Positions 10,361 through 36,042 of a DNA stretch of 64,000 bases are shown in pieces (position 1 is the stretch's first letter; every line of letters starts with the position of its first letter). The notes beneath the pieces were generated by a model, which saw nothing but the letters and a program-made list of their open reading frames with translations, made no database searches and had not been told where the DNA came from. The DNA lies in NCBI GenBank assembly GCA_012517575.1, contig JAAYUQ010000086.1, positions 1 through 64,000 on the forward strand, read 5' to 3'. This DNA comes from Bacteroidales bacterium. GTDB taxonomy: Bacteria > Bacteroidota > Bacteroidia > Bacteroidales > Paludibacteraceae. The position numbers and the translations under genes are program-made.

Positions 10361-10434
10361 TCTTCCTTAGCTCAGTCGGTTAGAGCATCTGACTGTTAAT
10401 CAGAGGGTCCTTGGTTCAAGTCCAAGAGGAAGAG
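10361..10434 (+). tRNA. tRNA-Asn(GTT)
   Basis: A full cloverleaf can be folded. The acceptor stem is TCTTCCT with AGGAAGA, the D-stem GCTC/GAGC, and the anticodon stem TCTGA/TCAGA around loop CTGTTAA. Anticodon GTT is at 10395-10397, and the T-stem is CTTGG/CCAAG with TTCAAGT. The discriminator is G10434, followed by CAA, so the CCA tail is not encoded. A terminator follows directly. Confidence 0.97.
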
Positions 10435-34068: not shown

Positions 34069-36042
34069 ATGAAAAAAGTTTTTCCTCTATTGTTTCTGTT
34101 TTTCTCTTCTTCGTTTCTTAACGCTCAAACTTCCAGTTTACTCAACGGCAATATTATTGGTACCCGTGAATCGGTTGATTACACCACCAATCAAAGTTCA
34201 ACTACAGTGAACACGATTCGAAATGTTTTCGACAACGATTTCAATACGTTTTTTGCTTCTTACGAGCGCAGTGGAACATGGGTCGGGCTGGATTTGGGAG
34301 CCAAACATGTAATTACCAAGATTGGTTATTCACCCAGAATTTCTTACTCAGCTAGAGTACAACTGGCACTAATTGAAGGAGCCAATTCTCCCGACTTTTC
34401 CGATGCCGTTCCGTTGTATTTGATTCCCAATGCCGCTGCAGAAAATGTAATGACTTATGCAGACGTCAATTGTTCACGCGGTTTTCGTTATGTGCGCTAT
34501 GTTTCTCCTTCGGATGTACGTTGTAATTTAGCGTAATTGCAGTTTTATGGCTATGAAAGCGAAGGGACGAACACAAAATTTTATCAGGTAACTAATTTGC
34601 CAACTGTTTCCATTCATACAGAAAACAGTCAGGATGTTGTTTCAAAAGATGTTTACTTAAAAGGAATTGTTAATTTTATTTCTGATAATGGCAATACCAT
34701 CTACACCGACAGTACTTCAATCAAAGGAAGAGGAAACGCCAGTTGGAATTTTCCAAAAAAACCCTACAAATTAAAATTATACAATAAAGTTAATTTATTG
34801 GGAATGCCGGCAAAAGCAAAAGAATGGACGCTTATCAATAATTATGGCGACAAAACGCTAATGCGGAATATGTTGGCTTTCAAAGTCAGTAAAATGCTCG
34901 ACATGCCTTATACTCCTGCAGGGACGTGCGTGGATGTGATTTTGAATGGTGAATACAAAGGAACTTATCAACTTTGTGATCAGATAGAAGTTCAGAAAAA
35001 CAGGGTAAATATTACCGAAATGGAACCAACAGATATTGCTTTGCCCAATCTTTCGGGAGGTTATTTATTGGAAGTTGATGCTTATGCTTATACTGAAATT
35101 TCCTGGTTTAATTCTACCAGAGGTAATCCTGTTACCATTCATTCTCCCGATGATGATGAAATTGTTCCGCAACAGACACAGTATATTACGGACTTTTTTA
35201 ACACTATGGAACAGGAAGTTTATGGAAGAGACTTTGCAAATGACAATGCTTCTTTCCGAAAACATCTCGATACAAAAACTTTTTTGAAAAATCTTCTTAT
35301 TGGAGAATTCTGCGGAAATACTGACACGTATTGGAGTACGTACATGTATAAACAGCGGAATAATGACACTTTATATACTGGTCCGATTTGGGATTATGAC
35401 TTGTCCTTTGAAAACGACAACAGAACCTATCCCATAAATAATCTGACTGATTTTATTTATTGTACAAACGGTTCTGCTGCTGGTAATATGCGCACTTTTG
35501 TAGATAATGTACTAGCCAGCAATGCTTCAAAAAGAGAATTGTATAATTATTGGAATGGAGTAAGATCGGAAAAATTGACTCAACAATCAATGATTTCGTT
35601 AGTAGATAGTTTAGCAACTTTGCTGGACAGTTCTCAAAAGTTGAATTTTATCCGCTGGCCAATATTGAATACGCTTGTTCATCAAAATCCAGTGATATGG
35701 CGCTCTTATCAAAATGAAGTGAACAATGTGAAAAATTATATCAGTGGAAGATTGACGTGGATGGACTCAAAGCTGCTATCTCTGTATCCTGGCCCTCAGG
35801 CAACCGAGAATCCGACAATAGGCAAATTATTTGTTGAGCATGACAAGGTACTTATTCAAGGATATGACCATCCGTTGATATATAAAATATTTTCCATTAA
35901 TGGACAAATTATTAGTATGGGTTCTTTGCCTGCTGGACAAGAAGCTTCGGAATCTTTGCATACAGGAATTTTTGTTGTGCAACTTCAGGACTTGCTGACT
36001 AAGGAAAAGAGTAGCCAGAAGGTATTTATTTCAGACAATTGA
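34069..36042 (+). pseudogene. CotH-family surface protein broken by one nonsense codon
   Basis: One long frame interrupted by TAA at 34534-34536. The first part (155 codons) has a signal peptide (MKKVFPLLFLFFSSSFLNAQ) and a discoidin/F5-8C-like domain. The second (501 codons, same frame) completes the discoidin domain (LQFYGYESEG), then has a CotH kinase-like domain with IKGRGNASWNFPKKPYKLK and WDYDLSF, and a C-terminal tail ending GIFVVQLQ...KVFISDN, like a type IX secretion sorting domain. The stop falls in the conserved block CNLA-stop-LQFYGY, where relatives have Glu (CNIAELEFYGY), so a single G-to-T change (GAA to TAA) explains it. Nothing else is damaged, so the change is recent, a sequencing error, or read through. 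If intact, the protein would be exported to the cell surface. Confidence 0.8.

Follow-up and report, generated by a model that had tools for sequence, protein, structure and literature searches.

The CotH-type gene in the window (the whole stretch of 64,000 nucleotides analysed here, which makes up positions 1-64000 of a contig of 65,762 bases; the genome comprises 2,496,637 bases in 160 contigs and is 89.32% complete) is interrupted by a single premature stop codon. It most probably represents a nonsense allele of very recent origin in an accessory gene, which encoded a probably secreted CBM62-like/CotH-kinase surface protein. The stop lies in the context GCG-TAA-TTG (34531-34539, plus strand) and is the one interruption in 657 codons, a second lesion being absent; the split of one frame into 155 and 501 codons by a single TAA, as described in the first-pass annotation, was confirmed from the sequence and its open frames (Table 1). 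Residue 155 would be expected to be the last one translated; it lies close to the end of the sugar-binding domain and immediately precedes a conserved glutamate, and the product would be a fragment devoid of this Glu, the last strand of the CBM62-like domain, the kinase domain and the sorting tail. We infer secretion, loss of function and a recent age.

Table 1. Features of the interrupted CotH-type gene (positions in the window).
Feature	Position	Strand	Basis or remark
5' open frame	34069..34536	+	ATG start, 155 aa, ends at the premature TAA
Putative signal peptide, ~20 residues	34069..34128	+	Hydrophobic start aligned with homologue starts; model helix 2-18
CBM62-like domain, last strand lost	34150..34530	+	phmmer, Foldseek
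N-x-x-D-x-x-x-x-T motif, residues 52-60	34222..34248	+	With the lost Glu, forms the predicted calcium site
Premature TAA	34534..34536	+	Alignment column is Glu in homologues
3' open frame	34537..36042	+	Same frame as the 5' part, 501 codons, closes with TGA
CotH kinase domain	34720..35763	+	PF08757, 162.9 bits, E=1.7e-47
Asp419-Asp442 stretch of the kinase domain	35323..35394	+	Each Asp in 87/87 homologues
Weak T9SS type A sorting tail	35809..36003	+	TIGR04183, 13.4 bits, cut-off 23

The residue that the stop replaces is strongly conserved. When the two halves of the gene, joined by X, were used as a tblastn query, 90 of 109 other loci spanned the site (19 did not), and 88 of these 90 carried Glu at the stop column (46 GAA and 42 GAG), the two loci without it (L021 and L022) being 30-32% identical to the query and poorly aligned there. 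Likewise, Glu was found at this column in all 87 homologues of the multiple alignment, which upholds the earlier claim that the stop replaces a conserved Glu. The 88 Glu loci are neither complete nor all independent, since the 80 named loci were the top 80 among the 126 relatives found and since L003 and L036 look like the same contig fetched twice. Among these best 80 of 126, the named relatives are Bacteroidia, mainly metagenome bins, the nearest being a Petrimonas sp. bin (69%). A stop at the aligned site occurred in none of the 90 loci, a set without a genome of the same species. The origin by one G-to-T change that had been proposed for the stop is compatible with the data but not demonstrated, because GAA and GAG are both present among relatives. 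In addition, in-frame stops elsewhere were seen in L088 (near query residues 572 and 595) and L107 (near residue 646), both near C-terminal parts of the protein, where they are perhaps the ends of shorter or frame-shifted tails; as these loci are interrupted at other places, the Glu site does not appear special in being hit.

Several comparisons show that the N-terminal domain is CBM62-like. The window fragment (residues 28-154) matched 2yb7 in a phmmer search (E=1e-24), the family profile also supported this assignment, and the structural model of a homologue, L031 (mean pLDDT 82.8, from a 13-row alignment), matched 2yfu in Foldseek (E=1.4e-10, 37% identity) as well as 2yg0. The phmmer entry for the 2yb7 chain is labelled 'carbohydrate binding family 6', and the same-sequence entries 2yfu and 2yg0 are titled CBM62 of Xyl5A, an identity that is also given for the Clostridium thermocellum module in PMC5063996. 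The Pfam family F5_F8_type_C scored 24 bits against the 5' half of the gene, below its cut-off of 28.2. Thus the domain called discoidin-like in the first-pass annotation is present, but it is more specifically CBM62-like, with its last strand and the conserved Glu falling beyond the stop. The module is incomplete in the interrupted frame, which ends before residue 156, and the last strand of the domain comprises residues 157-163 in the L031 model, just beyond the stop position, so that the truncated product would lack both the predicted ligand and this strand. Since the last strand, the kinase domain and the tail would all be cut off, the stop does not coincide with a domain boundary.

A predicted calcium site offers a structural reason for the strong conservation of the interrupted residue. 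In the CBM32 of LnbB, as described in PMC12926856, D804, T809 and E931 bind calcium through their side chains, and N801, N806, T809 and A930 bind it through their carbonyls. The spacing of the motif in the window protein equals that of N801/D804/T809, and its residues are conserved to different degrees among homologues (D55 in 87/87, T60 in 84/87, N52 in merely 32/87), while Ala155, which precedes the lost Glu, is found in 69/87. Because this spacing and the Ala-Glu pair are the same as in LnbB CBM32, the lost Glu is predicted, by analogy with CBM32 structures, to be a structural calcium ligand of the fold. The same source describes a Glu displaced from the metal in CpCBM32, hence the calcium role is not universal.

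Downstream of the stop, the 3' half matched the CotH kinase family over its full model (PF08757 profile positions 1-322 of 322, with a cut-off of 23.8 bits). The L031 model matched CotH structure 5jd9 in Foldseek (E=5.4e-14, TMt 0.73) and also 5jda. D228 and D251 of Bacillus subtilis CotH, whose variants D228Q and D251A are inactive according to PMC7821199, may correspond to D419 and D442, which are kept in the window protein; this equivalence is suggested by the shared spacing of 23 residues alone. The preservation of the sorting tail, claimed before, stood in part: the tail aligns with homologue tails, and a match to the T9SS tail family was obtained for 5 of 13 relatives, but the score of the window protein itself falls short of the family cut-off. 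The organism probably has a T9SS, since its genome encodes one full-length SprA and has 57 tail matches with E <= 0.001, 56 of which exceed the cut-off. Fusions of CBM62-like and CotH domains (here 34150-35763; among homologues, for instance, L003-L008 and L031-L110) were found in many genomes of gut, rumen and other Bacteroidia, some of them with a T9SS-type tail.

The gene sits between a block encoding DprA, a VanZ-like protein (below the Pfam cut-off) and an M48 protein and a block encoding FabH-type, YceD and histidine-kinase-type ATPase proteins. Both blocks were found, apart from each other, in G001 and G002, which belong to the same genus, and in G003; in G003 they share a contig but are separated by a long distance, and G001 and G002 carry them on separate contigs, the stretches read around one block being devoid of the other. 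The segment 33895-36201 is thus the meeting point of two blocks that are separate in these three genomes. A search with the 3' half gave no match in G003 or in G001 and G002, both same-genus genomes examined. Of 61 genomes, 28 gave some match, counting that of the window itself; the gene is thus patchily distributed, and we take it to be accessory. A second CotH-type gene in the same genome is 37% identical over query residues 1-567 and lacks the interrupting stop; it lies on a 42.5 kb contig (G000:C109, part of it being L192) with ten T9SS-tail matches, which is possibly a surface-protein island. No same-species alleles were found in viral contigs, either by pattern or by protein. The promoter motif TANNTTTG did not match the bases immediately preceding the gene, a result that is uninformative, and the only feature of the window to exceed an Rfam gathering score was a tRNA-Asn gene (10361-10434).

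The integrity of the gene apart from its stop argues for a recent event. At columns fully conserved in 84 relatives (>=45% identity), the window protein keeps the conserved residue throughout, with no break among 11 such columns before the stop or among 44 after it (residues 157-560). At less strictly conserved columns it breaks none before the stop (0/32 at 95% and 0/17 at 98% conservation) and a few after it (3/95 and 2/63, respectively), and 16 and 3 of the 84 relatives, respectively, are as bad after the stop; these breaks could hint at a longer relaxation than proposed here, a possibility that the lack of any further lesion disfavors. An old pseudogene was rejected on account of the lone interruption and the intact fully conserved columns. 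In comparison with the nearest relative, L031, pN was 0.180 before and 0.186 after the stop, while pS was saturated (0.849 and 0.867, respectively), and the low pN relative to the saturated pS on either side indicates long-term constraint on both parts. Of 5904 possible single changes, 291 give nonsense, and under neutral drift with assumed indel rates of 0.05-0.15 per substitution, a second lesion would be expected with 95% probability beyond an age of about 0.010-0.019 substitutions per site; the absence of such a lesion thus bounds the neutral age at about 1-2% divergence.

Relative rates were not relied on, since faster change after the stop appeared in 4 of 5 outgroup choices only and the contrast between the two parts was not significant. 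In the CotH part, changes on the window and L031 branches numbered 38/22 with L032 as outgroup, 43/16 with L033, 32/9 with both and 12/4 with a five-member set, but 25 and 27, with no excess, when L035 and L039 served as outgroup; before the stop, the counts for the five choices were 9/9, 8/9, 7/4, 2/2 and 6/5. The before/after contrast was not significant in any of the four outgroup choices tested (Fisher p 0.41, 0.08, 0.44 and 0.75), the L032 rows, which are two codons out of register, being left out of this comparison and of pN/pS. The window branch measured 0.229 in the 3' tree and 0.106 in the 5' tree, and L033 behaved likewise (0.211 and 0.123). Moreover, the relative-rate test presumes that the window protein and L031 are sisters, which received support of 0.95 (3' tree) and 0.89 (overall), while the 5' tree grouped the window protein with L032/L033 (0.18) and not with L031.

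The main alternative is that the TAA arose as an error in the assembly or consensus, or comes from a minority strain in the metagenome consensus, and that the real gene is intact. The draft state of the assembly (160 contigs, 89.32% complete) fits this explanation, as do the otherwise open frame and the intact fully conserved columns, and according to PMC11017572, assembly errors account for many of the putative pseudogenes in assemblies. However, no homopolymer or simple repeat adjoins the stop, and the gene is exceptional in the sampled part of its genome. Our coding-score scan of the window and 20 further stretches of this genome (265,090 bases, 189 gene-like frames) considered stops and did not count frameshifts. 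It detected nine frame pairs that share a stop; in eight of these the next ATG follows within 16 codons, like in ordinary neighbouring genes, and the CotH gene is the sole pair with a distant next ATG (89 codons). Since just one such split frame was found, the sample shows no generally poor assembly, frameshifts being uncounted. Two stricter codon-score scans, which accepted 36 and 54 genes, were unused; the 36-gene scan missed the CotH locus. Taken together, we consider an error unlikely, while giving it an appreciable chance.

The stop could also be functional, with mostly an N-terminal carbohydrate-binding fragment being made and occasional readthrough yielding a little full-length kinase protein. 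The downstream frame does stay open, as such regulation would require, but UAA followed by U, as here, is an efficient terminator. None of the 39 tRNA genes found in the 89.32% complete genome has the UAA-reading anticodon UUA, and plain shuffling of the 80 bases that follow the stop gave sequences that fold at least as well (z = +1.0; dinucleotides were not preserved in the shuffling), so that an unusual downstream hairpin is not indicated. According to an argument made in PMC7918605, bacterial ribosomes frequently read through conserved in-frame stops, but the stops considered there occupied the same place in at least two genomes, whereas here none of the 90 loci shares the stop. With no second case in 265 kb either, the readthrough offered by the first-pass annotation is very improbable. 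Recoding was rejected on the basis of the 39 tRNA genes found, the unshared stop and a sample that contains no other case.

Gene fission, in which translation would stop at the TAA and re-initiate at the TTG directly after it to give two working proteins, appears more improbable still: the cut would precede the modelled last strand of the domain rather than fall at the domain end, a signal peptide would be missing from the 3' product, and the first ATG lies 89 codons downstream, within the CotH domain. Phase variation commonly affects surface proteins, and a phase-variable switch had been among the earlier suggestions. The stop is of the substitution type, though, no simple repeat over the scan thresholds was present within 34481-34600 (the entire gene has one, seven A at 34755), and the inverted repeats near the stop are short and imperfect; on the two latter grounds phase variation was rejected, and we give it hardly any credence. 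In summary, the lack of a recoding tRNA among the 39 genes found, of an unusual hairpin or repeat at the stop and of a second split frame in the sample, together with a site that is not special, favors a very recent nonsense allele. Thus, among phase-variable loss, very recent decay, sequencing error and readthrough, the four options first put forward, very recent decay is best supported, by the one lesion, the intact conserved columns and the patchy, accessory nature of the gene.

Most simply, the phenomenon is ordinary and not a new mechanism, and taken alone, the interruption of a single accessory gene in a draft assembly matters little; as a by-product, the N-terminal domain was identified as CBM62-like in a CBM-CotH family of gut, rumen and other Bacteroidia. 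Like the single-nonsense and assembly-made bacterial pseudogenes treated in PMC11017572, the gene has a single in-frame stop in an otherwise open frame, with nothing distinctive relative to the cases in that source. The N-terminal domain resembles the CBM62 of C. thermocellum Xyl5A (2yb7, 2yfu, 2yg0) by the phmmer match of the window fragment and the fold of the L031 model. However, this CBM62 is joined to an arabinoxylanase, whereas the CBM62-like domain of the window protein is joined to a CotH domain, and, unlike in Xyl5A, its last strand and conserved Glu lie behind a stop. Likewise, the 3' half resembles CotH kinases (PF08757), including B. cereus CotH (5jd9/5jda), in its match to the full family model and in that of the L031 model to 5jd9, but unlike B. 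cereus CotH, the window protein is fused to a CBM62-like domain and interrupted by a stop, and relatives add a T9SS-type tail. In addition, CotH-like domains have been described in secreted polysaccharide-degrading complexes, the cellulosomes, where structural or regulatory roles were proposed for them (PMC12484212); as a point of difference, some relatives of the window protein (5/13) have a T9SS-type tail.
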